From positions 1 through 48,395 of the forward strand of contig NZ_KB894710.1 in NCBI RefSeq assembly GCF_000374565.1: a DNA stretch of 48,395 nt, given 5' to 3'. Within the stretch, counting starts at the first letter, position 1. Each line of letters starts with the position of its first letter. A program made the position numbers and the translations under genes. Shown in pieces: positions 2,926 through 28,276 of this stretch. This DNA comes from Siminovitchia fordii DSM 16014 = CIP 108821. Its GTDB lineage: Bacteria; Bacillota; Bacilli; Bacillales; Bacillaceae_C. The notes under the pieces were generated by a model. The model had not been told where the DNA came from. It saw only the letters and a list, made by a program, of their open reading frames with translations, and did not search any database.

Positions 2926-4265
<1,340 letters not shown>

Positions 4266-16322: not shown

Positions 16323-16340
16323 TTGGCATGATTCTTGCTT
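16323..16340 (+). promoter_or_regulatory. Sigma-54 (-24/-12) promoter 1
   Basis: TTGGCATGATTCTTGCTT with GG at 16325-16326 and GC at 16337-16338, exactly ten bases apart. Transcription would start near 16350, about 20 bases before the VOC gene. TAAATCAATG lies 45 bases upstream and recurs in related form at the other two sigma-54 promoters. Confidence 0.85.
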
Positions 16341-16370
16341 CAAATAAAGATGTGCGAAAGGAGCGTAACA

Positions 16371-16829
16371 ATGAAAAAAGGAAAAGTGACTGGTTTCATC
16401 CATAACGGGATTACTGTGAAAAATTTGGAGGATGCTCTTGGTTTTTATGTGGATTTGTTAGGTTTTAACCTTTTATCAACTCAAGTAGCCAATAGTGACT
16501 ATATTTTCGACATTGTTGAAATACCTGGTTTAAAAGAGATTAAAATTGCCTTTGTGGAGATCCCAGGTGGACAAGTGATAGAGATTCTAGAGTATGTAGG
16601 GATTGAAACATATCCGGGAAGTGCACGATCTTGTGACTATGGAACTGGACACATTTGCTTGAGAGTTGAAAATCTAGAGTCTCTGTATGAAGAGTTGAAG
16701 GAAAAAGGAGTTAAATTTAAATCCGAAAAGGTGGCTCATATTACTGCTGGTACGAACAAAGGTTCAAAGGCTGTTTATATGCTTGACCCAGACGGATATA
16801 TTATAGAGCTAATGGAAAAACCAGAATAA
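16371..16829 (+). CDS. VOC-family metalloenzyme of the sigma-54 island
   Basis: 152 residues. Four candidate metal ligands are in the expected places: His11 (FIHNGITVKNLEDALGFYVD), Glu in VIEILEY, His in GTGHICLRV, and Glu in YIIELMEK. This is the pattern of active VOC enzymes such as glyoxalase I and methylmalonyl-CoA epimerase. ATG 16371 follows GAAAGGAGCG. The longer frame from 16335 would run through the promoter. It is first in a two-gene sigma-54 operon with an SDR 33 bases downstream. It may epimerise or isomerise an intermediate of the island's pathway. The substrate is unknown. Confidence 0.82.
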   Translation: MKKGKVTGFIHNGITVKNLEDALGFYVDLLGFNLLSTQVANSDYIFDIVEIPGLKEIKIAFVEIPGGQVIEILEYVGIETYPGSARSCDYGTGHICLRVENLESLYEELKEKGVKFKSEKVAHITAGTNKGSKAVYMLDPDGYIIELMEKPE

Positions 16830-16862
16830 CGCTGAAAAAATTCAATGAGAGGAGAAGAAAAA

Positions 16863-17615
16863 TTGAAAGACTTAAGTGGGAAAAAAGCAATTGTAACGGG
16901 CGGAGCTCAAGGTTTAGGTTTAGCGATGGTTGAGGGACTCAGCGAAAATGGTTTAGAAATTTGCATAGTGGACATCTCACCAAAACTAGCTCAAGTCGTA
17001 GAGGGTTTAAAGAACAAAGGGTATAAAGTAGAAGGAGTTTCAGCGGACCTTTCCGAGCAAAGCCGCCTTCCGGAAGTCTTTAAGGAGGCTCTTTCCTCAT
17101 TGGATAATGAAATTGATATTTTGGTCAATAGTGCTGGAATCCATCATCCGATGCCGGCAATGGAGTTACCTGCAGAGAGTTTTCAAAAGATATTGGATGT
17201 AAACGTTACGGCCATGTTCCAATTATGTCGGCTTGCAGCTAACGAAATGAAAAAGAGGGGCAAAGGCAAGATTATTAATATCGCTTCAGTTTTGGGGACA
17301 TTTGGCGGATTTAACGCTTCTGCCTATTCGGCGAGTAAAGGAGCAGTGGTTCAACTGACGAAGTCACTGTCGAACGAGTGGGCGGCAGCCGGCATAAATG
17401 TTAATGCAGTTGCACCAGGATACTATGAGACAGAATTGAATCGTCATATTCTTGGGGACAAAGAAAGATATGACTCTTTAGTGAGCCGTATACCAATGGG
17501 GCGTTTCGGGCAGCCTCAAGAACTGGCGGGGATAGTTGAATTTCTTTCTTCGGATAAATCTAACTATATTAGTGGGGCTGTTATTCCGGTAGATGGTGGG
17601 TTCTTAGGCAGATAA
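16863..17615 (+). CDS. SDR-family dehydrogenase 1
   Basis: 250 residues, classical short-chain dehydrogenase. It has the NAD(P) motif TGGAQGLG near residue 13, an NSAG variant of NNAG, the catalytic Ser in NIASVLG, and Tyr155/Lys159 in YSASK. It ends in GAVIPVDGGFLGR. The acidic residue in IVDIS after beta-2 suggests NAD. It resembles gluconate/KduD-type dehydrogenases. TTG 16863 is chosen because GAGAGGAGAAG precedes it. The second SDR at 27524 shares its length and many motifs (both end in IPVDGG-x-LGR), so the two are paralogues serving one pathway. Confidence 0.85.
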   Translation: MKDLSGKKAIVTGGAQGLGLAMVEGLSENGLEICIVDISPKLAQVVEGLKNKGYKVEGVSADLSEQSRLPEVFKEALSSLDNEIDILVNSAGIHHPMPAMELPAESFQKILDVNVTAMFQLCRLAANEMKKRGKGKIINIASVLGTFGGFNASAYSASKGAVVQLTKSLSNEWAAAGINVNAVAPGYYETELNRHILGDKERYDSLVSRIPMGRFGQPQELAGIVEFLSSDKSNYISGAVIPVDGGFLGR

Positions 17616-17669
17616 AGAGTAGGAATGAATTTTTCATTCTTAAGGAAAACAGTCCAACCTGATCAAGAA

Positions 17670-17697
17670 CTGCTAATGCTTATATTAGCAGTTTTTA
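17670..17697 (+). terminator. Terminator of the VOC-SDR operon
   Basis: CTGCTAAT (17670-17677) pairs with ATTAGCAG (17684-17691), followed by TTTTT. Confidence 0.8.
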
Positions 17698-17703
17698 CTT
17701 GTA

Positions 17704-17726
17704 TTTTTACATCAATGTTGTAAAAA
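17704..17726. promoter_or_regulatory. Inverted repeat upstream of sigma-54 promoter 2
   Basis: TTTTTACA-N7-TGTAAAAA is a perfect 8-base inverted repeat about 60 bases upstream of the -24 element. It contains TACATCAATG, similar to blocks upstream of the other two sigma-54 promoters. It is a candidate enhancer site for the local activator. Confidence 0.5.
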
Positions 17727-17784
17727 TGCATCAAAACATGATGAAATACTAACCATATGATCGGCAATTAAATAGAAATCAATT

Positions 17785-17802
17785 ATGGCATAGTTTTTGC
17801 AT
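17785..17802 (+). promoter_or_regulatory. Sigma-54 (-24/-12) promoter 2
   Basis: TATGGCATAGTTTTTGCATT with GG at 17787-17788 and GC at 17799-17800, ten bases between. It drives the TRAP transporter operon with a leader of about 190 bases. A hairpin TTGACC/GGGTCAA (17969-17990) lies directly before the dctP ribosome site. Confidence 0.85.
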
Positions 17803-18004
17803 TGTATTTTAAAGATAAATAAACAATGGCAGAAGAAGGTGAAATTAGATTTTAAAATTTAAATGATGTGGAAGCGAATACATGAAATGGATTTATTCAA
17901 ATTTATTCAATCAAGCAATCGCGTTAATTTGAAGAATTGTACTTGCGGTTTATCTAGCAATCTTGATATTGACCTGCTTTGACGGGTCAAAAAGGGGGAT
18001 TAAG

Positions 18005-19051
18005 GTGAAAAAATTAAGAATAAAGCCGATCTTGTTATCATTATGCGCTGTCATTTTAATTCTTTCGGGGTGCGGTACTACTAAAAAGAAGGGCACCGTG
18101 GGCGCTAATGGAGAAAAAGTGGTAATCAGAATGGCGAATCTTGTCTCAGATAACAACTTTTTGAATGTAGGTTACAAAAAATTTAAGGAAGTAGCTGAGG
18201 AAGAAAGCAATGGGCAAATCGAAGTCCAAATTTACAGTAATGGTACTCTGACGCCGTCAGAAGATATAGAATATGAAATGCTGCAGACGGGAGTAATAGA
18301 AGTTGTGACAAATGCAGCATTTGTCGTTGCGAACAACGCACAAGTGAATTCTTACAATATCTTTGACGTACCTTTTCTATTTTCTGATGAAACAGAGATG
18401 TATAAATTAACTGATGGCAAGTATGGGGAGATTTTAAAACGCGATTTAGAAAGCAAATCTAATGCCTACTATCTGGGGGCTTACAGTATCGGCTCCTTTG
18501 CGATTGCTAACAACAAAAGGGAAGTACACGAACCTAAAGATTTAAAAGGCTTGAAAATTAGAAGCACAACGACACCTCTTCAATCGGGAACAATATCTGC
18601 TATGGGAGCAAATCCTACCCCGATTTCTTATGGAGAGATTTTCACATCTTTGCAGCAAGGTACAATTGATGGTGTACAAACAACCACACCACTAATATAT
18701 GCTGATAGATTCTATGAGGCGGCTGATTATTTAACACTTACAAGGCATTTTCCACTACCTCATATTATGATGATCAATAAAGATTTTTACGATAGCTTAA
18801 CAGATGAACTGAAGGCGGTAGTCGATAAAGCTGCGTCAGAACAAATCGCCTATGCCAGAGAATTAGCAGTTAAAGCTGAAAAAGAAGCAATTGATTCGAT
18901 GAAAGAACAAGGGGTGCATGTTGTTGAACCGACGGAGGAGGAACTGGATTTATTTAAGAAAGCGGTTCAACCGGCAATTGACAAGAACATAGATAAAGTA
19001 GGATCAGAAAACTATAAAATGGCATTGGAGATTTTAAAGAAGGATAAATAA
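18005..19051 (+). CDS. TRAP transporter substrate-binding lipoprotein (DctP family)
   Basis: 348 residues. The signal peptide ends in a lipobox LSGC with Cys23, so the protein is anchored outside the membrane as expected in Gram-positives. The DctP fold is shown by EVEVQIYSNG-like and EMLQTGVIEVV segments, DLKGLKIRSTTTP around the conserved substrate-carboxylate arginine, and GTIDGVQTTTPLIYADRFYEAADYL. DctP proteins deliver carboxylates and related anions to the DctQM membrane part. GTG 18005 follows AAAGGGGGAT. It is first of three genes under a sigma-54 promoter. The ligand is unknown. Confidence 0.88.
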   Translation: MKKLRIKPILLSLCAVILILSGCGTTKKKGTVGANGEKVVIRMANLVSDNNFLNVGYKKFKEVAEEESNGQIEVQIYSNGTLTPSEDIEYEMLQTGVIEVVTNAAFVVANNAQVNSYNIFDVPFLFSDETEMYKLTDGKYGEILKRDLESKSNAYYLGAYSIGSFAIANNKREVHEPKDLKGLKIRSTTTPLQSGTISAMGANPTPISYGEIFTSLQQGTIDGVQTTTPLIYADRFYEAADYLTLTRHFPLPHIMMINKDFYDSLTDELKAVVDKAASEQIAYARELAVKAEKEAIDSMKEQGVHVVEPTEEELDLFKKAVQPAIDKNIDKVGSENYKMALEILKKDK

Positions 19052-19078
19052 AATTTGATGAAGATTGAAGGTGAGTGC

Positions 19079-19567
19079 ATGGACAAAAATAAAAGCATCT
19101 TTGCGATAGAAGGGCTATTTTGCGTTCTTTTGTTAGTAATAATGACGGTAATCATGTTCATTGAAGTCGTCGGAAGATATGTTTTTGGGACTTCTTTTAT
19201 GTGGATTGAAGAATTAACAAGATATTTATTCATCTGGCTGACTTTTATCAGCGCTGCCTACGTAACGGCCACACAATCTCATATTAAAATTGAGGCGGCA
19301 TTAGGCTTGTTTCCAGAGAAGATACAGCCAGTGATTACAACAATAGGCCTAGTTGTTTGGCTAGTCTTTTCTCTAATCATCACATATGTGGGATTTAATT
19401 ACTCTATTACGATGCTGAAGGTAGGAGGAAATTCGCCGGCAATGGGGTTGGCAAAAGGAATTATTTATCTTGGTATCCCGCTTGGTTATCTGCTCATGTC
19501 TATCCGGTTGGCCGTTTTGTTATTTAAAGCACGTCCCAAATTGATAAATAGAGATGTGAAAGAATAG
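19079..19567 (+). CDS. TRAP transporter small membrane subunit (DctQ family)
   Basis: 162 residues with four membrane helices. The DctQ pattern is RYVFGTSFMWIEELTRYLFIWLTFISAA and then TQSHIKIE. Together with DctM it forms the sodium-driven membrane unit that takes substrate from DctP. ATG 19079 follows AAGGTGAG. ATG 19058 just upstream is less well placed. The gene begins 27 bases after dctP and ends 12 bases before dctM. Confidence 0.87.
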   Translation: MDKNKSIFAIEGLFCVLLLVIMTVIMFIEVVGRYVFGTSFMWIEELTRYLFIWLTFISAAYVTATQSHIKIEAALGLFPEKIQPVITTIGLVVWLVFSLIITYVGFNYSITMLKVGGNSPAMGLAKGIIYLGIPLGYLLMSIRLAVLLFKARPKLINRDVKE

Positions 19568-19579
19568 GGGGGGATATCC

Positions 19580-20902
19580 ATGGGCACAGTTACGCTTATG
19601 TTGTTCATTATTTTGCTAGTTTTAGTCATTCTTCAGGTGCCGATTGCCATCGCATTAGCTGCGGCAAGTCTCCTGGTAGTTATTATTGAAGGTTCGGTTC
19701 CGCTCACGCTTTTTATTCAGACATCCTTCAGTTCAATGGATTCGTTCCCTTTAATTGCGATTCCGTTCTTCATCCTGGCGGGTGATATTATGAGTAAAGG
19801 AGGAATGGCAAGAAGACTTGTCGAGTTTATTCAAAGCTTTGTTGGTTCTTTGACAGGAAGCTTAGGGGTTATTACGATAATTGCCAGCTTTATTTTTGCT
19901 GCTATTTCAGGATCTGGAGCAGCTACAGTTGCTAGTATCGGAGCTATTCTTATTCCATATATGTTGAAAAACGGCTATGCTCCTGGTTATGCCGCTTCGT
20001 TGGCTGCGAGTGCTGGTGGGTTGGGGCCGATTGTCCCGCCAAGTATCGTGTTTATTCTTTACGGCGTGATGTCCGGCACTTCCATCAGTGATCTGTTTAT
20101 TTCCGGGATTATTCCTGGCATCTTAGTTGCTATTGCGTTGGTCATTGTTAACTTTATTATTTGTAAAAAAGAAGGATTTGGCCGTAACGAAGAAAAAGCG
20201 GTATTGGAAGCTGCGGCTTCTTCTGTAGAAAAAGAAAAAGTAAGTTTCTGGAAAGCTCTTAACGATGCAAAATGGGCACTTCTGGCGCCTGTTCTAATTC
20301 TTGGCGGAATTTACGGAGGGATTGTCACGCCTACTGAAGCAGCAGTTGTTGCTGTTGTTTATAGTCTAATCGTATGTATTTTCTTATATAAGGAAGTTAC
20401 TCTGAGCGGTTGTTTGGAAATATTTTTGCAATCAGCCCGTACATCAGGGTCTATATTGATATTTGTTAGTGCCGCTTCTTTTTTCGGACAGGTCCTATCT
20501 ATCGAAAGAATACCACAATTTTTGGCTGAAGCCATATCAAACCTGACAACCAATCCGCTGATTATACTATTGCTGATTAATATCTTTTTATTGATTGTCG
20601 GCATGTTTATGGAGACGGTAGCGGCCGTTTTAATATTCGTACCTCTTTTACTGCCTATTGTACTACCTTTAGGCATTGATCCGATTCACTTTGGAATGGT
20701 TGTTTGTCTGAATCTGAGTTTGGGATTGATTACCCCGCCATTAGGAATCAATTTATTTATCGGCAGTAATATCGCAAATATTCCATTTGAAAGAACGTTT
20801 AAATATGTACTGCCGATTTTTGGTGCATTGTTAATTGTATTATTAATTATTACGTATGTACCTTCCATTACGTTGTTCCTTCCGAATTTAATTGGAGGTT
20901 AA
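19580..20902 (+). CDS. TRAP transporter large membrane subunit (DctM family)
   Basis: 440 residues with about 12 hydrophobic helices. DctM landmarks are ISGSGAATVASIGAILIP, SAGGLGPIVPPSIVFILYG, GGIYGGIVTPTEAAVVAV and NLSLGLITPPLGINLFIGSN. It forms the transport domain that moves substrate with sodium. A GGGGGGGAT ribosome site precedes ATG 19580. It is the last gene of the TRAP operon, which ends at a shared terminator with the convergent regulator. Confidence 0.9.
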   Translation: MGTVTLMLFIILLVLVILQVPIAIALAAASLLVVIIEGSVPLTLFIQTSFSSMDSFPLIAIPFFILAGDIMSKGGMARRLVEFIQSFVGSLTGSLGVITIIASFIFAAISGSGAATVASIGAILIPYMLKNGYAPGYAASLAASAGGLGPIVPPSIVFILYGVMSGTSISDLFISGIIPGILVAIALVIVNFIICKKEGFGRNEEKAVLEAAASSVEKEKVSFWKALNDAKWALLAPVLILGGIYGGIVTPTEAAVVAVVYSLIVCIFLYKEVTLSGCLEIFLQSARTSGSILIFVSAASFFGQVLSIERIPQFLAEAISNLTTNPLIILLLINIFLLIVGMFMETVAAVLIFVPLLLPIVLPLGIDPIHFGMVVCLNLSLGLITPPLGINLFIGSNIANIPFERTFKYVLPIFGALLIVLLIITYVPSITLFLPNLIGG

Positions 20903-20906
20903 AAAG

Positions 20907-20940
20907 GCAAGCACCGCCAATTGTCGGCGATGCTTGCTTT
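20907..20940. terminator. Shared terminator between dctM and the regulator
   Basis: GCAAGCACCGCC (20907-20918) pairs with GGCGATGCTTGC (20926-20937) with one mismatch. It has a T run on the plus side and AAAAA on the other, so it serves both convergent genes. Confidence 0.8.
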
Positions 20941-22604
20941 TACTTCTCAATTTTGTACTTTTTCATTTTTCTGACCAGAGTCGATTGGTCCACCTTCAAT
21001 GCAGTAGCTGCTTTTCTAATGCTGGGAAAGTTTTTAACAACTTCCCGGATAATTTGCGCTTCGTATTCTTCTACATAGCTTTTCAATGGCTGCACTTGAA
21101 GACCGACTGTAAAAGAGTCAGAAGTCTTATCCTTTACTTCTGGTTTCAAATCATTATTAAATTGCAGCTCTTTTTTTAAATCATCAATCCCAATTTCAGG
21201 ATTTAGGCTCATCAAGGCTACTCTTTCCACTATGTTTTGTAATTCGCGAACATTTCCGGGCCATTCAAAATGTAGAAAAGCATTTAATGCTTCATTTGTA
21301 AATTTGCGGTTGATACCATATTGTTGATTCGTCTTATTTAAAAAGTGGAAAATTAATGGAATAATATCATCTTTTCTCTCTTTTAATGGAGGTATTTTAA
21401 TTGGAATGATATTTAAACGGTAGTATAGATCCTCTCTGAATGTCCCTTGGGCTATCATTTCAGATAAATCACGGTGAGTTGCCGCAATAACCCGTATATT
21501 AACAGGGATGGGCTTGGTTCCTCCTACTCTTGTAATTTCATGTTCTTGTAAAACCCGCAAAAGTTTAACTTGTAAAGGAAGAGGCATCTCACCAATTTCA
21601 TCTAAGAAGATCGTGCCATGATTTGAGGCTTCAAATAACCCAGCTTTTCCTTTTTTATTAGCCCCGGTAAAAGAGCCGGATTCATAACCAAATAGTTCAG
21701 ATTCCAATAGTGATTCAGGTATTGCCCCGCAATTAATCTTTATTAAAGGGTGATCCTTTCTGACACTATGGCTGTGAATCAATTCCACAATTTTTTCTTT
21801 ACCTACCCCGGAAGCCCCTTGGATAAGAACCCCTGAATCAATTTGGGCTACTCTTAAAGCCCTGTCCAAAACGTCTTTCATGACATCTGAATGGGCAATC
21901 AGCGACAGCTTTGGATCGCTCTGTTCTTTCAGCAACTCTAATTCCTGATGTATCTGTTGATTTTGCTGCTCTAAATGATGAATTTCTGATTCAAGAGAAT
22001 TTAATTGCGTTAAATCCCTGACATTGTTTACCACTTTTTCAATTTCACCATCCCTGTTACGAATGGGAACAGCAGAAACAAGGACAGTAGCGCCAGTATT
22101 TATTTTTTGGATGATCGTGACAGCTTTGTTTTCGTTCAATGCTTTCAAAGAAGCTGAAGCATCAATTACTCCTTCCTCCTCAAGCTCCTTTAAGCTGCGG
22201 CCAATACAGTCTTTTGTAGACAAACCAGTGATTTGCTCATAGGAAGGGTTTTGGTGAATAATAATTCCTTCTTTATCGGAAATAACGATGCCGTCAAAAG
22301 ATGAATTTATGACTTCATTCAATTCATTTCTCAGACTTTGCAAGGTATCTTTCTCTTTTTCCAGCCTTACTAATTGGTCAATCGGCTGAATTAAGACAAC
22401 CATTTGATTGTTATGAGGAAAAGCCATAAATTCTGCAGGAAAATTCAATAAACAAAAGGACTGTGCTCCTTTTAATACTGTTTTAATAATGGAATCAAAA
22501 TAGTATCTGTACTTTTGAGCTAATGGGTTCGAGTATAAAATATCACCATGTTTGCTTAACGTGAGAACACCAATGATATTGATTTTGGGCAGCAGATTAT
22601 CCAT
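20940..22604 (-). CDS. Sigma-54-dependent enhancer-binding regulator (PAS-AAA-Fis)
   Basis: 554 residues. An N-terminal region of about 85 residues is of unclear type. A PAS domain (about 95-200, NELNEVINSSFDGIVISDKE) and a coiled coil follow. The AAA+ domain has Walker A GASGVGKE near 263, GSFTGA near 310 (the sigma-54 contact loop, normally GAFTGA), and Walker B IFLDEIGEM. A Fis-type HTH lies at the C-terminus (IRKAATALKVDQSTLVRKMK). ATG 22604 follows AAGGAGGAG. It is the only activator in the island and is divergent from the dehydrogenase operon. It probably controls all three sigma-54 promoters. Ser for Ala in the GAFTGA loop is uncommon but found in active members. It differs from AcoR in lacking an obvious GAF domain. 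Confidence 0.9.
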   Translation of the reverse strand: MDNLLPKINIIGVLTLSKHGDILYSNPLAQKYRYYFDSIIKTVLKGAQSFCLLNFPAEFMAFPHNNQMVVLIQPIDQLVRLEKEKDTLQSLRNELNEVINSSFDGIVISDKEGIIIHQNPSYEQITGLSTKDCIGRSLKELEEEGVIDASASLKALNENKAVTIIQKINTGATVLVSAVPIRNRDGEIEKVVNNVRDLTQLNSLESEIHHLEQQNQQIHQELELLKEQSDPKLSLIAHSDVMKDVLDRALRVAQIDSGVLIQGASGVGKEKIVELIHSHSVRKDHPLIKINCGAIPESLLESELFGYESGSFTGANKKGKAGLFEASNHGTIFLDEIGEMPLPLQVKLLRVLQEHEITRVGGTKPIPVNIRVIAATHRDLSEMIAQGTFREDLYYRLNIIPIKIPPLKERKDDIIPLIFHFLNKTNQQYGINRKFTNEALNAFLHFEWPGNVRELQNIVERVALMSLNPEIGIDDLKKELQFNNDLKPEVKDKTSDSFTVGLQVQPLKSYVEEYEAQIIREVVKNFPSIRKAATALKVDQSTLVRKMKKYKIEK

Positions 22605-22712
22605 AAACTCTCCTCCTTCTGAAAAAACGATGATTTTTTGCATCGGTTCATCAATTATACATCAGTTTACCAAATAAACATACAAATAATCGCTAAAGTG
22701 CCGGGCTAAAAA

Positions 22713-22730
22713 TTGGCATGATAATTGCAA
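22713..22730 (+). promoter_or_regulatory. Sigma-54 (-24/-12) promoter 3
   Basis: TTGGCATGATAATTGCAA with GG at 22715-22716 and GC at 22727-22728, ten bases between. It has the same TTGGCATGAT start as promoter 1. It drives the five-gene dehydrogenase operon. TACATCAGTT (22658-22667) and the inverted repeat GTTTA-N5-TAAAC (22665-22679) upstream are candidate activator sites. Confidence 0.88.
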
Positions 22731-22778
22731 TATAGATTAATTGTAGGAGTTATTATGTGTAAATATAGGAGGTACGTT

Positions 22779-23759
22779 ATGTCCAACTTAAAAATATCTT
22801 CTTATTCAAAAGAAGAATTACAATCTATGCTGCACGATATGATGTTGATTAGAAGATTTGAAGAAACCTTGAAGAAACTTTATCAGCAAGGGGAAATCCA
22901 TGGAACCATGCATTTATGCATCGGACAAGAAGCAACGGCTGTTGGCGCATGTGTCCCTTTGACTAATGAAGATAAAATCACAAGTACTCATCGGGGGCAT
23001 GGCCATAGTATTGCAAAAGGGACGGATGTCAAAAAAATGATGGCTGAGCTGCTGGCCAAAGAAACGGGATATTGTAAAGGAAAAGGTGGATCCATGCATA
23101 TTGCGGATCTTGATGTGGGGAATCTTGGAGCAAACGGCATTGTAGCAGCCGGATTACCATTAGGTACAGGCGCGGCATTAACGTCCAAAATGAAAGAGCT
23201 GGGATATGTTGTTTTATGTTTCTTTGGAGATGGTGCGACTAATGAAGGTGCCTTTCATGAGTCATTAAATCTTGCTTCAGTCTGGGATCTTCCTATTATT
23301 TTCTTTTGTGAGAACAATCTGTACGGCATGTCGGGCTCTATAAAAGAAATGACAAATATAGAAAATATAGCGGATCGCGGTGTTGCATATGGTATACCTA
23401 GTGAAATCATAAATGGAAATAATGTATTAGAAGTTGTGGAAGCAACAACAAAAGCAGTGGAGAGGGCAAGAAACGGAAAAGGCCCAACTTTAATAGAGGC
23501 CCATACTTATAGATGGGAAGGCCACTCCCGCAGTGATGCCAGAAAATATAGAACGAGAGATGAAGAGAAAGAGTGGAAAAAACTTCGGGATCCGATTTCT
23601 TTATTTAAAGAACAATTAATCAATGAAAATATGATGACGGAAGAAGAATTTATCGAATTAGATAAAAAAGTTCAAGCTGAGATGGATGAAGCAGTTGAAT
23701 TTGCAAAAAACAGCAACGAGCCAAGTTTGGAAACTTTAACAACCGATATTTATGCATAA
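22779..23759 (+). CDS. ThDP-dependent dehydrogenase E1 alpha (acetoin/pyruvate type)
   Basis: 326 residues. It opens with LHDMMLIRRFEETLKKLYQQGEIHG, then HRGHGHSIAKG, GGSMHIADLDVGNLGANGIV, and the ThDP motif GDGATNEGAFHESLN near residue 150 ending in CENNLYGMS. The length and the GxxHxxxGxEA region fit AcoA-like and short PdhA-like E1-alpha rather than the longer orphan at 2956. With E1-beta it decarboxylates a 2-oxoacid, or cleaves an alpha-hydroxyketone such as acetoin, and passes the acyl or aldehyde unit to lipoate on E2. ATG 22779 follows TAGGAGG. Confidence 0.88.
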   Translation: MSNLKISSYSKEELQSMLHDMMLIRRFEETLKKLYQQGEIHGTMHLCIGQEATAVGACVPLTNEDKITSTHRGHGHSIAKGTDVKKMMAELLAKETGYCKGKGGSMHIADLDVGNLGANGIVAAGLPLGTGAALTSKMKELGYVVLCFFGDGATNEGAFHESLNLASVWDLPIIFFCENNLYGMSGSIKEMTNIENIADRGVAYGIPSEIINGNNVLEVVEATTKAVERARNGKGPTLIEAHTYRWEGHSRSDARKYRTRDEEKEWKKLRDPISLFKEQLINENMMTEEEFIELDKKVQAEMDEAVEFAKNSNEPSLETLTTDIYA

Positions 23760-23778
23760 GCGAAAGGTGATGAAAAAA

Positions 23779-24759
23779 GTGAGACAGATTACTTATTCAG
23801 AAGCAATCAAAGAAGCCATGTGCCAAGAAATGAGAAAGAATGACGATGTTTTTATTATGGGTGAAGATATCGGGGTCTATGGAGGTGCCTTTGGTTTAAC
23901 AAACGGAATGATCGAGGAATTCGGGCCTGAACGAGTTAGAAACACCCCTATTTCTGAAGCGGCCATCAGCGGGTGTGCAGTCGGAGCTGCGATGACAGGT
24001 ATGAGACCGATTCTTGAAATTCAATTCTCTGATTTTATCGTGATTGCTATGGACAATATCGTTAATCAGGCGGCAAAAATGCGGTATATGTTTGGAGGAA
24101 AAGCGAAAGTTCCTCTTGTTGTGCGTCTCCCGAGTGGTTCCGGTGCAGGGTTTGCTGCTCAGCATTCTCAAAGCCTGGAAGCTTGGATGACCCATATTCC
24201 TGGCTTAAAAGTAGTTCAGCCATCGTCAGCATATGATGCGAAAGGTTTAATGAAAGCTGCTATTAAAGACGACAACACCGTACTCTTCTATGAGCATAAA
24301 CTTCTTTACAATGCTAAAGGAGAGGTGCCGGAAGAAGATTATGAAATTCCATTGGGTGAAGCGGACGTCAAAAGGGATGGAACAGATATAACCATTATAG
24401 CAACCGGTATAATGGTCAGCCGATCTCTCGAAGCAGCAAAGCAGCTTGAAGAGGAAGGGATAAGCGTGGAAATAATCGATCCCCGTACGTTAGTGCCGCT
24501 TGATACAAAAACAATTTTGGAATCAGTGAAGAAGACAAGCCGTGTACTAGTTGTATATGAAGCAGTGAAAAGGGGCGGTTATGGAGCAGAAATCGCAAGT
24601 ATGATTGCTGAAAGTGACGTGTTCGATTATTTGGATGCCCCAATTAGACGCTTAGGCGGGGTAGCTACACCAATTCCATATAATCCGAAATTGGAACAGG
24701 CAGCGGTCCCGCAAATAGATGATATTGTACAGGAATGCAGAAAGATAATGAATAAGTAA
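23779..24759 (+). CDS. ThDP-dependent dehydrogenase E1 beta
   Basis: 326 residues. ITYSEAIKEAMCQEMRKNDDVFIMGEDIGVYGG is the standard E1-beta opening. RVRNTPISEAAISGCAVGAAMTG, LRLPSGSG-like MVRLPSGSGAGFAAQHSQS and ATGIMVSRSLEAAKQLEEEGISVEIIDPRTL-type segments follow. It forms the heterotetramer with E1-alpha and contributes half of the ThDP site. GTG 23779 follows AAAGGTGA with good spacing. ATG 23770 would be only one base from it. The start lies 20 bases after E1-alpha. Confidence 0.87.
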   Translation: MRQITYSEAIKEAMCQEMRKNDDVFIMGEDIGVYGGAFGLTNGMIEEFGPERVRNTPISEAAISGCAVGAAMTGMRPILEIQFSDFIVIAMDNIVNQAAKMRYMFGGKAKVPLVVRLPSGSGAGFAAQHSQSLEAWMTHIPGLKVVQPSSAYDAKGLMKAAIKDDNTVLFYEHKLLYNAKGEVPEEDYEIPLGEADVKRDGTDITIIATGIMVSRSLEAAKQLEEEGISVEIIDPRTLVPLDTKTILESVKKTSRVLVVYEAVKRGGYGAEIASMIAESDVFDYLDAPIRRLGGVATPIPYNPKLEQAAVPQIDDIVQECRKIMNK

Positions 24760-24771
24760 GGAGGCGAAGTC

Positions 24772-26106
24772 ATGGCATCAGAGGTAGTCATGCCTAAAAT
24801 GGGCGCAACAATGGAAGAAGGTACCATTGTCGCCTGGTTGGTTCAAGTAGGAGAAGCGGTTGAAGAAGGAGACCCGATTGCCGAAGTACAGACAGATAAA
24901 ATTACTTTGGAAATTGAAGCAGAAACAGCAGGCGTTTTGCTGAAAACATTATATGATACAGGGACGACTGTCCAGGTTCATGAGGTGATTGCTTATTTGG
25001 GTGAGGAAGGTGAAAAAGTCGAAAGCTTGGCAGGCAAGGAACAAAGTACACAAGATCCATTAAGTGAAGAGCAACACCCATCTACAGGAGTAGCTATTGC
25101 TGAAGAAAACTCAGTAAAACCGGGAGAAAAGATCAGAAGAACACCGGCTGCAAGAAAACTGGCCGAAGATAACCAGGTTAATTTAAAGGATGTTATTGGT
25201 TCAGGACCACTTGGTCGAATTCAAAAAATAGATGTTGAAAACTATTTAGTGGAAAATAAGAAAAAAATCACACCGCTGGCTAAAAAAATCGCTAAGGACC
25301 AGGGGATTGATCTTCGAGATGTACAAGGAACAAGACCTAGGGGCAAAATTGTAAAAGATGATCTAATAGCTTTGAGCTCTGAGAACAGCATAGAAGAACA
25401 GCCTGCAGACATTCAAGCCGCTAGACGTGTTCCTTTTAAAGATATGAGAAAAGTAATAGCTGATAGAATTAGCGAAAGTGCCTTTACCGCTCCGCATGTA
25501 ACGCTTGTATCAGAAATTGATATGACAAAATGTGTGTCTCTTCGTAAGGATCTATTGACGGTTATTGAAAAGATGGAAGGGCTGAGAATTTCCTTTAATG
25601 AAATTTTAATGAAAGCGGTAGCTCTTACGTTAAGTCAACAACCAGGCATTAATATTTCTTTAGAAGGAGAAGAGATCGTCTATCATTCAGATATTCATAT
25701 CGGAATGGCAGTAGCTGTACCGGATGGCTTGGTTGTACCTGTTCTTAGGAATGTCGATCAAAAAGGATTAGCGGCCCTTACAAAAGAAGCTAAAGATTTG
25801 GGCAAAAAGGCTCGAGAAGGCAAACTGTCTCCTGATGACATGCATGGCAGCACCTTTACTGTTAGCAATTTAGGGATGTATGCCATTGATGAATTTACAC
25901 CGATCATTAATGCTCCAAATGCAGCTATCCTGGGAATTGGACGGATTCAAGATAAACCGGTTATTTTAAACGGTGAAGTGGCTGTCCGTTCGATGATGAA
26001 AGTGAGTCTATCCTTTGACCATCGAATTATTGATGGGGCACCTGCAGCCGCCTTCTTGACCGAATTGAAAGATACATTGGAAAATCCATACAAATTGATG
26101 GTATAA
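24772..26106 (+). CDS. Dihydrolipoyl acyltransferase E2 with two subunit-binding domains
   Basis: 444 residues. A lipoyl domain (1-80) carries the lipoyl Lys43 in QTDKITLE. Two tandem peripheral subunit-binding domains follow, about 121-159 (RRTPAARKLAEDNQVNLKDV, GSGPLGRI) and 165-200 (ITPLAKKIAKDQGIDLRDV, GTRPRGKIVKDD). The catalytic acyltransferase domain spans about 212-444, with FDHRIIDGAPAAAF holding the active His and Asp. It transfers the acyl group to CoA. Bacillus AcoC has one such binding domain, so the duplication is notable. It could hold more E3 or both E1 and E3 at once. The start follows AAGGAGGCG. Confidence 0.9.
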   Translation: MASEVVMPKMGATMEEGTIVAWLVQVGEAVEEGDPIAEVQTDKITLEIEAETAGVLLKTLYDTGTTVQVHEVIAYLGEEGEKVESLAGKEQSTQDPLSEEQHPSTGVAIAEENSVKPGEKIRRTPAARKLAEDNQVNLKDVIGSGPLGRIQKIDVENYLVENKKKITPLAKKIAKDQGIDLRDVQGTRPRGKIVKDDLIALSSENSIEEQPADIQAARRVPFKDMRKVIADRISESAFTAPHVTLVSEIDMTKCVSLRKDLLTVIEKMEGLRISFNEILMKAVALTLSQQPGINISLEGEEIVYHSDIHIGMAVAVPDGLVVPVLRNVDQKGLAALTKEAKDLGKKAREGKLSPDDMHGSTFTVSNLGMYAIDEFTPIINAPNAAILGIGRIQDKPVILNGEVAVRSMMKVSLSFDHRIIDGAPAAAFLTELKDTLENPYKLMV

Positions 26107-26118
26107 GGTGGTGACCGT

Positions 26119-27501
26119 ATGAGTTTTTATGATGTGATAATTGTTGGCGGTGGTCCAGGAGGCTATGTCGCCGCACTAAGAGCAGCGAAAAGTGGAAAAA
26201 GGACAGCACTTGTAGAAGCTGATTATTTAGGAGGTACCTGTCTAAATAGGGGATGTATCCCTTCTAAAACTTTATTAAAGCATGCTGAAATTATCGAAAG
26301 TATTGAGAAAGCGAAAAGCTGGGGAATCAAAGCAGGTGATCTAGACTTTTCGCTGGAAGAGATGTTTGAGCATAAAGACCAAGTCATCGCTACTTTGAGA
26401 AACGGCATTGAACATTTATTAAATGCTGGAAAAATCGATGTTTATTATGGTATGGGGACTATCCATCACGATAAAAAGGTGACAGTAAAAACGGAAAGTG
26501 AAACAACACAAATTAGCGGAGAGAAAATCATCATTGCCACCGGAAGCCAGCCCGCTGTACCTCCGATTGAAGGGCTGGAGGCTGTACATTATCAAACAAC
26601 AGATACAATCTTTAATATTGAGAAGATTCCTCAGTCGATCGTGATTATCGGCGGTGGCGTTATCGGAGTAGAGTTTGCGAATATTTTTTCCAGCTTGAGG
26701 ACACAGGTTACGATTATTGAACTTGGGGACAGGATCATACCTACGGAGGATCAAGACGCCTCAAAAGAATTGCTGAACCACTTAAAGAGGAAGGGTGTCA
26801 AAGTTTTAACGAAACACCAAGTTACCTCCATCAAGGAAACGGATAACAGCAAGACAATCAGCATCACATCGGAAAAAGGGGACATAGACACTCTTACAGC
26901 CGATGAAGTCCTATTGGCTGTCGGACGACAGCCCAATCTATCAGCGGTTTCAGAGCTGGAGCTTGACATGAATGGCAAATATATTGCAGTAAATAATTAT
27001 TTGGAAACAAGCAAAGCAGGTTACTTTGCTGTTGGCGATGTAATCGGCGGGCTGCAATTGGCACATGTCGCCAGCGCAGAAGGGCTGACGGCTGTTAAAA
27101 ACCTTGATGAGAAACAGGAGAAAATGAAATACAATGTCATCCCTCGCTGTATTTATACGAATCCTCAAGTTGCCAGTGTGGGATTGAGTGAAGCAGAGAT
27201 AAAGAAAAAAGGCATTAGATATAAGGTAAATAAATATTCATTTTCAACTAATGGTAAAGCATTGGCCTCAGGTGAAACGGAAGGTTTTACCAAAGTTTTG
27301 GTAGATGAGAAATATGGTGAAATATTAGGTATAGTGATGATAGGTGCCCATGTTACAGAAATGATTAGCCAATCTTCTGCTTTTATGTATTTGGAAGGAA
27401 CCGTGGATGAACTTGCAGAAATGGTACAACCTCACCCATCTCTTTCAGAAGCATTAATGGAATCTGCAAATGCCCTGATTGGAAAGGGAATCCACACTTA
27501 G
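26119..27501 (+). CDS. Dihydrolipoyl dehydrogenase (E3)
   Basis: 460 residues. FAD motif GGGPGGYVAALRAAK near residue 10. The redox-active pair is Cys41 and Cys46 (GGTCLNRGCIPSK). The NAD motif GGGVIGVEFANIF follows, then YFAVGDVIGGLQLAHVAS and HPSLSEALMESA with the C-terminal His-Glu pair. It reoxidises dihydrolipoate on E2 and makes NADH. It starts 12 bases after E2. There is no N-terminal lipoyl domain, unlike some Gram-positive E3 proteins. Confidence 0.92.
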   Translation: MSFYDVIIVGGGPGGYVAALRAAKSGKRTALVEADYLGGTCLNRGCIPSKTLLKHAEIIESIEKAKSWGIKAGDLDFSLEEMFEHKDQVIATLRNGIEHLLNAGKIDVYYGMGTIHHDKKVTVKTESETTQISGEKIIIATGSQPAVPPIEGLEAVHYQTTDTIFNIEKIPQSIVIIGGGVIGVEFANIFSSLRTQVTIIELGDRIIPTEDQDASKELLNHLKRKGVKVLTKHQVTSIKETDNSKTISITSEKGDIDTLTADEVLLAVGRQPNLSAVSELELDMNGKYIAVNNYLETSKAGYFAVGDVIGGLQLAHVASAEGLTAVKNLDEKQEKMKYNVIPRCIYTNPQVASVGLSEAEIKKKGIRYKVNKYSFSTNGKALASGETEGFTKVLVDEKYGEILGIVMIGAHVTEMISQSSAFMYLEGTVDELAEMVQPHPSLSEALMESANALIGKGIHT

Positions 27502-27523
27502 ATCATAGAAAGAGGGCGAAACG

Positions 27524-28276
27524 ATGTTTGATATAACTGGAAAAAAAGCGATAATTACTGGTGGAGCCCAAGGTTTAGGTTTTTCGATGGTTCAGGCTTT
27601 TTACCAGGCGGGTGTCGAAGTGGCAGTAATTGATATTTCAGATGGGATATTTGAAATCTGCGATAAATTGGGGGCTGATGCTTCTAAAATCCATACAGTT
27701 CAAGCGGATTTGTTAAATATAGAAAGTCTTACAAAGTCATTTGAAGAGGCTTTAAGTAAATTGGGTGGGACTGTAGATATATTAATCAATAGCGCAGGCT
27801 TAATCCAAAGAAAACCAGCCTTTGAATTCTCTATAGAGAGCTGGAATAGAATAATGGGATTGAATGTCACTTCCGTTTTCGAACTGTCTCGATTAGCTGC
27901 GGTGGAAATGATGAAACAGGGATCGGGAAAAATTATCAATATGGGATCTATTCTTTCAGTATTGGGCGGTTTTAACGCAGCGGCCTACTCAACGAGCAAA
28001 GGGGCAATTTTGCAGCTGACGAAATCACTGTCAAATGAGTGGGCAGAACATGGCATTCAAGTGAATGCTATTGCACCAGGATATATGTTAACCACAATGA
28101 ATACAGATCTTATGAATGATCCAGTAAGATCTCCCCAGATAGAAGCAAGAATTCCTGCCAAAAGATGGGGGACACCTGAGGATGTTGCTGGTGTTGCCAT
28201 GTTTTTGGCTTCTCCTGCCTCTGACTATGTGACTGGCACCTTAATTCCAGTTGACGGCGGAGTATTGGGCAGATAA
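27524..28276 (+). CDS. SDR-family dehydrogenase 2
   Basis: 250 residues, paralogue of the SDR at 16863. It has TGGAQGLGFSM, VIDIS after beta-2 (acidic, suggesting NAD), NSAGLIQRK, Ser in NMGSILS, Tyr155/Lys159 in YSTSK, APGYMLTTMN and a PVDGGVLGR end. The NSAGxxxRKP segment resembles gluconate 5-dehydrogenase and KduD types, which act on sugar-acid hydroxyls. It starts 22 bases after E3 with GAAAGAGGGCG and closes the operon. The reaction probably feeds the dehydrogenase complex, or the SDR interconverts stereoisomers of the substrate with its paralogue. Confidence 0.87.
   Translation: MFDITGKKAIITGGAQGLGFSMVQAFYQAGVEVAVIDISDGIFEICDKLGADASKIHTVQADLLNIESLTKSFEEALSKLGGTVDILINSAGLIQRKPAFEFSIESWNRIMGLNVTSVFELSRLAAVEMMKQGSGKIINMGSILSVLGGFNAAAYSTSKGAILQLTKSLSNEWAEHGIQVNAIAPGYMLTTMNTDLMNDPVRSPQIEARIPAKRWGTPEDVAGVAMFLASPASDYVTGTLIPVDGGVLGR

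Follow-up and report, generated by a model that had tools for sequence, protein, structure and literature searches.

Acetoin is the textbook alpha-ketol for thiamine diphosphate (ThDP)-lipoyl complexes. In Bacillus the described system is the acoABCL-acoR locus, given as HD73_3213-3217 of Bacillus thuringiensis in the available part of PMC4428206, with ThDP-dependent E1-alpha and E1-beta subunits, a lipoyl E2, an E3, a sigma-54 promoter and an activator. The same elements occur in an island at positions 16323-28276 of a 48,395-nucleotide stretch of Siminovitchia fordii DSM 16014 (contig NZ_KB894710.1, positions 1 to 48,395; hereafter the window, from a host genome of 4.5 Mb), and both, as proposed here, would split an alpha-ketol into acetyl-CoA and an aldehyde. 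However, the island adds a tripartite ATP-independent periplasmic (TRAP) importer, two short-chain dehydrogenases/reductases (SDR1 and SDR2) and a metalloprotein of the vicinal oxygen chelate (VOC) superfamily, and its activator carries a PAS domain with no GAF match.

On balance we favour the reading that the island is a sigma-54 regulon through which an imported organic acid is used as a carbon source, with the ketol cleaved by the E1-E2-E3 complex. The gene set that a sequence-only reading had described between 16323 and 28276 was recovered, as eleven genes, when open reading frames (ORFs) were scanned with Pfam and NCBIfam models. Its view that the locus is unlike acoABC-acoR is also supported: the genome holds a separate, putatively acoR-like/E1/E2 locus, and the cluster E1 lies elsewhere in the E1 tree. 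The features of the island are as follows.

16323-16339, plus strand: sigma-54 promoter of VOC-SDR1, TTGGCATGATTCTTGCT; no RCATC-repeat operator upstream in the window
16371-16829, plus strand: VOC-superfamily metalloprotein, probable isomerase (Pfam Glyoxalase; best fold match 1f9z)
16845-17615, plus strand: SDR1, KduD-like dehydrogenase (Pfam/NCBIfam scans)
17665-17696, plus strand: terminator-like hairpin 3′ of SDR1
17709-17732, plus strand: predicted operator, direct repeat ACATC-N14-GCATC, beginning 76 bp 5′ of the promoter
17785-17801, plus strand: sigma-54 promoter of dctPQM, ATGGCATAGTTTTTGCA; equivalents in L013 and L014 only
18005-19051, plus strand: DctP solute-binding lipoprotein (TIGR00787, 198 bits, cut-off 175)
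19079-19567, plus strand: DctQ small permease (PF04290)
19580-20902, plus strand: DctM large permease (TIGR00786, above cut-off)
20907-20937, no strand: terminator-like hairpin between the convergent dctM and activator genes
20940-22604, minus strand: PAS-AAA+-HTH sigma-54 activator (PF00158, PF00989, PF18024; ORF from 22643)
22640-22663, plus strand: predicted operator in the activator/E1-alpha interval, direct repeat GCATC-N14-ACATC, beginning 73 bp 5′ of the promoter
22713-22729, plus strand: sigma-54 promoter of E1a-E1b-E2-E3-SDR2, TTGGCATGATAATTGCA
22779-23759, plus strand: E1-alpha (E1a), ThDP-dependent (PF00676)
23752-24759, plus strand: E1-beta (E1b) (NF006667, above cut-off)
24772-26106, plus strand: E2 with lipoyl, E3-binding and acyltransferase domains (PF00364, PF02817, PF00198)
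26119-27501, plus strand: E3 dihydrolipoyl dehydrogenase (TIGR01350, 543 bits, cut-off 409)
27524-28276, plus strand: SDR2, KduD-like dehydrogenase, in the conserved core (80-82% in six full-set relatives)

All three TRAP components (P, Q and M) score above their family cut-offs. SDR1 and SDR2 are 51% identical; both fall short of the KduD model TIGR01832 (235 and 257 bits, respectively, cut-off 338.85), and both match the meso-butanediol dehydrogenase model below cut-off. Terminator-like hairpins number 17 in the region, against 9.9 in shuffles. Given those after SDR1 and between dctM and the activator gene, the window is likely organised as three transcription units plus the activator.

The conserved core of the cluster

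Loci in relatives were collected by one pattern-based VOC scan of named genomes, which returned nine loci, one of them truncated; with the window added, nine full loci were compared. All eleven genes are found in the same order in seven of these (the window, S. thermophila, Neobacillus mesonae, N. kokaensis and three Sporosarcina, two of the last from metagenome bins). The neighbourhood comparison that the sequence-only reading had suggested thus finds the set travelling together in 7/9 loci, with joint presence conditioned on the VOC gene through which they were found. In Peribacillus simplex the order is VOC, a different SDR, a zinc alcohol dehydrogenase, activator, E1-E3, SDR2 and a carrier of the major facilitator superfamily (MFS), and in Heyndrickxia it is VOC, activator, E1-E3, SDR2, an aldehyde dehydrogenase (ALDH) and an MFS carrier. 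The Heyndrickxia carrier is 82% identical to that of P. simplex over the part covered, and the best model for the MFS carrier is a D-galactonate transporter, below cut-off. An SDR1 orthologue is absent from L019, and L015 has a 36% identical SDR in its position. Since TRAP and SDR1 are missing from the P. simplex and Heyndrickxia loci, they form a variable module and are not part of the core. Common to all nine loci found through VOC, and hence their core, are VOC, the activator, E1a-E1b-E2-E3 and SDR2.

A DctP orthologue (73-80%) stands at the cluster in six of the eight relatives' whole genomes searched, Heyndrickxia not being among the eight; the whole genomes of P. simplex and B. norwichensis contain no DctP orthologue, only relatives of 31-35%. 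VOC was found in 3 of 34 genomes of the family, once truncated. Among 397 evenly sampled Bacillales genomes, the window's own genome was the only one in which VOC or DctP was found, a sign of rarity more than of linkage. E1a relatives turned up in 36 of the 397, the own genome included; the E1 is therefore the widespread part. In B. norwichensis (L020:6250-6900) the VOC match ends after residue 53 and the sequence beyond resembles, by eye, the end of a group II intron. The genes before this VOC resemble those upstream in the window, and it looks like the same locus, interrupted.

Sigma-54 promoters and a predicted shared operator

Bare GG-N10-GC elements were rejected as promoter evidence, their count in the window (185 against about 150 expected) being near chance. 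The fuller TGGCAYN5TTGC occurs four times against 0.16 expected under a first-order Markov model; three copies stand 5′ of genes, and the fourth, at 20116 within dctM, was taken as a chance match. The three promoters that had been claimed at 16323, 17785 and 22713 are present as exact or nearly exact -24/-12 elements, a consensus form also given for sigma-54-dependent promoters of B. thuringiensis in the available part of PMC4428206. Exact TTGGCAYN5TTGCW sites number 37 genome-wide, two of them at the island, and with one mismatch allowed there are 169, against 50 for the reversed control. A -24/-12 site precedes both VOC and E1a in 9/9 loci. DctP has its own promoter in three of the seven DctP-bearing loci; in the remaining four, DctP lies directly 3′ of SDR1.

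A search for inverted repeats as the activator site gave nothing convincing, and direct repeats emerged on reading the upstream regions. CATCA/TGATG words number 57 in 21 upstream regions, whereas in 200 letter shuffles the count averages 7.6 and never exceeds 18. The direct repeat RCATC-N14/15-RCATC, spaced by about two helical turns, begins 64-76 bp before the TTGGCA box and stands 5′ of 16 of the 22 promoters in the nine loci and B. norwichensis, a count that is partly circular because the motif was derived from the same loci; its genome-wide rarity is not circular. Admitting C as the first letter, or a spacing of 16, brings in both L017 promoters. On both strands of 213 kb there are 20 such repeats, the 16 at promoters included. 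A composite of operator and promoter, whose spacing was fitted to the cluster sites, has 19 matches in nine whole genomes, 18 at the cluster and one elsewhere (G000:C10), and the reversed pattern has none; the B. norwichensis genome contains no composite match.

In both Neobacillus loci the operator is present at all three promoter types. This, and the fact that all but one of the 19 composite sites lie at the cluster, give good in-silico evidence that the island is one sigma-54 regulon, as the sequence-only reading had supposed, with the window's VOC promoter excepted. The repeat nearest to that promoter within 370 bp has two mismatches and is 220 bp off, and the VOC promoters of B. norwichensis and Heyndrickxia likewise have no operator. 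A missing operator at the window's VOC promoter is what would be expected if the three operons were chance neighbours under separate control. However, with gene order kept in 7/9 loci, and with the Neobacillus operators and the composite sites, we find this scarcely credible.

The activator contains a GSFTGA loop, a variant of the GAFTGA sigma-54 contact, and a Walker A motif GASGVGKE; judged by its relatives, its start is probably at 22604 rather than at 22643. It had been called the only sigma-54 activator, which is true just locally: the genome has 37 AAA+ matches, 31 of them near-full. By comparison, the available part of the B. thuringiensis study counts eight activators (PMC4428206), against the 31 of the Siminovitchia genome with its 37 exact -24/-12 sites. 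The activator was also said to have a PAS rather than a GAF domain. A PAS domain is indeed present and no GAF match was found at E 1e-3, but the contrast is weak because the genome's acoR-like activator likewise has no GAF match at E 1e-5. Elsewhere in the genome (L039:3345-9948), a further activator with a GAF domain adjoins another E1a-E1b-E2 set.

Placement of the E1 complex and its neighbours

By its closest models, the complex could be an ordinary 2-oxo acid dehydrogenase, in which case the SDRs would make a 2-oxo acid and E1-E3 would convert it to acyl-CoA and CO2. E1a scores 386.9 bits against the pyruvate dehydrogenase model TIGR03182, just short of the cut-off of 393.85, its best matches in the Protein Data Bank (PDB) are pyruvate dehydrogenases, and E1b passes NF006667. 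However, such a reaction releases no aldehyde, yet an ALDH gene lies directly 3′ of SDR2 in six of the nine loci with downstream sequence; an isomerase-type VOC would be superfluous; and E1s adjacent to the cluster E1 in the tree are encoded beside DRL (DXR-II), a ketol-handling enzyme. We therefore regard an ordinary 2-oxo acid dehydrogenase as unlikely.

The tree (FastTree, 37 taxa including the E1s of six of the nine loci; an earlier tree had 19 taxa) groups the window E1 with those of L075, L076 and L019 (support 0.998), and joins this group to a Bacillales DRL-linked group (0.984). The support of the latter group itself is 0.49, so that a 'sister' relation is uncertain. The genome's putative acetoin-like E1 paralogue falls outside both groups, as it did in the 19-taxon tree. 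This bears on a further alternative, a second locus for acetoin or 2,3-butanediol, in which the SDRs would be butanediol dehydrogenases and VOC an acetoin racemase. The textbook standing of acetoin as the alpha-ketol of such complexes and the sub-threshold SDR matches to meso-butanediol dehydrogenase are consistent with it. Nevertheless, a TRAP importer, or an MFS carrier of organic-anion type in two loci, is unsuited to a neutral substrate, and the genome already has another activator/E1/E2 locus, putatively acoR-acoABC, from whose E1 the cluster E1 falls away; a second acetoin locus is quite improbable. An orphan E1-alpha paralogue, 32% identical to the cluster E1a, also lies in the window (2947-4032, plus strand). 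It is preceded by a regulator-like ORF on the opposite strand, and no E1-beta ORF of at least 150 amino acids was found before the next long ORF.

Neighbourhoods were read for 20 of the 36 other Bacillales E1a matches. DRL lies near E1 in 12 of the 20, each time with genes of a glucitol-type phosphotransferase system (PTS); the remaining eight comprise L075, L076, two in which the E1 pair was incomplete as read, and four whose stretch lacks DRL. Among plasmids, DRL was found in six of seven E1 neighbourhoods (seven examined of 517 matching records), identified as PF21135 by Pfam in the two scanned and also by similarity. The Bacillales DRL-linked E1s show 60-65% identity. Searched by tblastn at E 1e-3, neither the window nor any of 17 related-locus stretches gave a DRL match, the search covering these stretches rather than the rest of the genomes. 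Loci L079-L094 (12 of 16), as well as L043-L047 and L049, are recurring examples of DRL with E1-E2-E3 and either a glucitol-type PTS or an ABC transporter plus kinase.

DRL acts between 1-deoxyxylulose 5-phosphate (DXP) and 2-C-methylerythritol 4-phosphate (MEP), according to the available part of PMC3424233, and DXP cleavage is therefore the obvious guess for the DRL branch. The same source reports that purified pyruvate dehydrogenase makes 1-deoxyxylulose from pyruvate and glyceraldehyde, so ketol-cleavage chemistry fits. The DRL/E1/PTS clusters are a possible pathway for 2-C-methylerythritol use. Like the island, they place an oxidoreductase step ahead of a complex of this type, but have DRL with PTS/kinase (in rhizobia, DRL with PTS or ABC) where the island has SDR, VOC and TRAP; moreover, they are expected to use a phosphorylated ketol and have SorC-type regulators adjoining. 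A more speculative reading, which we hold somewhat less likely than not, makes the window complex a member of a hitherto undescribed group of ketol dehydrogenases with two branches. In the branch that has DRL and a glucitol-type PTS or a kinase, DXP derived from 2-C-methylerythritol would be split into acetyl-CoA and glyceraldehyde 3-phosphate. In the window branch, SDR and VOC would take the place of DRL, and acetyl-CoA and an aldehyde acid would arise from a ketol acid that is not phosphorylated. In the part of the literature searched we found no description of this gene set or of a DRL-E1 pathway, and the available portion of a paper on DXR-II evolution (PMC3847144) contains no mention of pyruvate dehydrogenase, 'catabol' or transporter.

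The VOC enzyme

Residues H11, E71, H94 and E146 of VOC are invariant in 9/9 loci and align with positions of Escherichia coli glyoxalase I (GloA) that we take to be its metal ligands. The same four positions are found in relatives from Fuscovulum, Agrobacterium, Bosea and two archaea. The predicted structure (mean pLDDT 85.9, weak around residues 81-90) best matches Ni-glyoxalase I, with a TM-score of 0.61 by query. From these data VOC is a probable isomerase. With glyoxalase I as both nearest model and nearest structure, and with L075 holding the core without VOC, the protein might instead detoxify a reactive dicarbonyl or aldehyde by-product. Against this, it reaches 57.9 bits where the lactoylglutathione lyase model TIGR00068 has a cut-off of 120, it is the first gene behind a sigma-54 site in 9/9 loci, and it recurs beside E1-E2-SDR in one Fuscovulum plasmid; detoxification is in our view rather unlikely.

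A search of plasmids for VOC gave 76 matching records, of which 25 were listed and eight neighbourhoods examined. Fuscovulum has an E1, and Agrobacterium and Bosea have a split transketolase; no E1 was found in the other five, the two archaea and Sinorhizobium being checked by blastp, Rahnella and Rhodococcus by annotation only. The Fuscovulum blasticum plasmid cluster (LysR, fused E1, E2, SDR, VOC) shares with the island the adjacency of E1, E2, SDR and VOC. It differs in its fused E1, LysR control, long tree branch and single record, with a TauE/SafE-family gene nearby, and the stretch shown has no E3, TRAP or PTS. In the Agrobacterium and Bosea clusters (L022 and L023), VOC and SDR again stand beside a ThDP enzyme and a transporter, but the enzyme is of split transketolase type and is accompanied by an enolase-superfamily protein, GntR control, an L-idonate 5-dehydrogenase-like gene and TRAP or a sugar ABC transporter. 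L022 also has a semialdehyde dehydrogenase. These clusters possibly represent a route via 5-ketogluconate to tartrate. In a Halostella stretch, an acetolactate-synthase-like ORF was recognised by eye.

The DctP pocket and the aldehyde dehydrogenase link

The AlphaFold prediction for DctP had a mean pLDDT of 54.9 and was set aside as poor. By sequence, DctP belongs with IseP and the sugar-acid DctP proteins (8t9t, 7bbr) and keeps the main carboxylate arginine (R173-equivalent), but the second pocket arginine and the asparagine (R152- and N213-equivalents) are replaced by F and T in 7/7 orthologues, so that an Arg/Arg/Asn pocket is absent. According to the available part of PMC11668362, IseP binds sulfonate by two arginines and Asn217, and the second Arg and the Asn are described as supporting the carboxylate, with an exception for a ligand without an adjacent hydroxyl. 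An ordinary 2-hydroxy sugar acid is therefore less likely than the MFS family alone suggests, and a plain sugar-acid substrate, considered as a candidate, is weakened. The pocket also bears on a sulfonate pathway (isethionate, 2,3-dihydroxypropanesulfonate (DHPS) or a sulfosugar acid). IseP ranks second among the PDB matches of DctP, as does the sulfoacetaldehyde dehydrogenase SafD among the models of the Heyndrickxia ALDH, and the DHPS dehydrogenase HpsO is a low-ranking match of SDR2. However, two of the three IseP pocket positions (PMC11668362, available part) are the F and T just described, and no sulfonate-cleavage gene was recognised among the cluster genes, making a sulfonate very improbable.

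The best model for the Heyndrickxia ALDH is lactaldehyde dehydrogenase, below cut-off (542 of 650 bits). Its nearest counterpart in the S. fordii genome (64%) lies at L059:6156-14421, where an activator, a BCCT carrier, a Rieske oxygenase, a reductase, ALDH and a tartrate/D-malate-type dehydrogenase stand together, presumably resembling carnitine use with a malic semialdehyde intermediate. A carnitine-type pathway under sigma-54 is a guess, because the best models of the Rieske protein and the BCCT carrier are glycine betaine ones, both below cut-off. From this context the aldehyde may carry a carboxyl group. A shikimate-dehydrogenase homologue is an additional gene in two Sporosarcina loci.

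A proposed route

A route of uptake, SDR oxidation, VOC rearrangement and cleavage had been outlined from the window. Ketol cleavage fits the ALDH genes in 6/9 loci and the DRL-linked neighbour E1s, whereas TRAP and SDR1 proved not to be core; with the core so corrected and ALDH added, the route is plausible. The activator would sense a ligand through its PAS region, bind the RCATC-N14/15-RCATC repeats and drive the -24/-12 promoters. TRAP would import a carboxylate, an SDR would oxidise a secondary alcohol to a ketone, and the VOC metalloenzyme would shift the carbonyl, or invert a centre, via an enediolate to give an alpha-ketol. Cleavage of this ketol by E1-E2-E3 would yield NADH, an aldehyde and an acyl-CoA, probably acetyl-CoA; the aldehyde would be oxidised by ALDH, which lies within the operon in 6/9 loci and is perhaps encoded elsewhere in Siminovitchia. 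SDR and VOC may together do the job of DRL in the clusters neighbouring in the E1 tree. The sequences themselves show which genes are present and conserved, the promoters and the operator motif, where the E1 falls and how ALDH is linked; activator binding, the ligand, the substrate and each enzymatic step are what we infer from them.

Several observations weigh against this account. Besides the conditioning of the loci on VOC and the circular promoter count, L075 has the core without VOC, and SDR1 is lost along with TRAP in two loci. Operators are missing at three VOC promoters, the window's own among them, and ALDH is not adjacent to SDR2 in the window, S. thermophila or P. simplex. For the complex itself, E1a comes close to the pyruvate dehydrogenase model, the DRL-linked group is poorly supported, and the acetoin-like reference in the E1 tree is putative only.

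The operator makes the regulon directly testable, and DctP offers a quick way to the substrate. If the proposed grouping is true, both branches would be new routes of carbon use. Acetoin dehydrogenase is usually viewed as a speciality for one substrate; related ThDP-lipoyl complexes would instead constitute a wider toolkit for cutting different ketols, each with its own oxidation and rearrangement enzymes.

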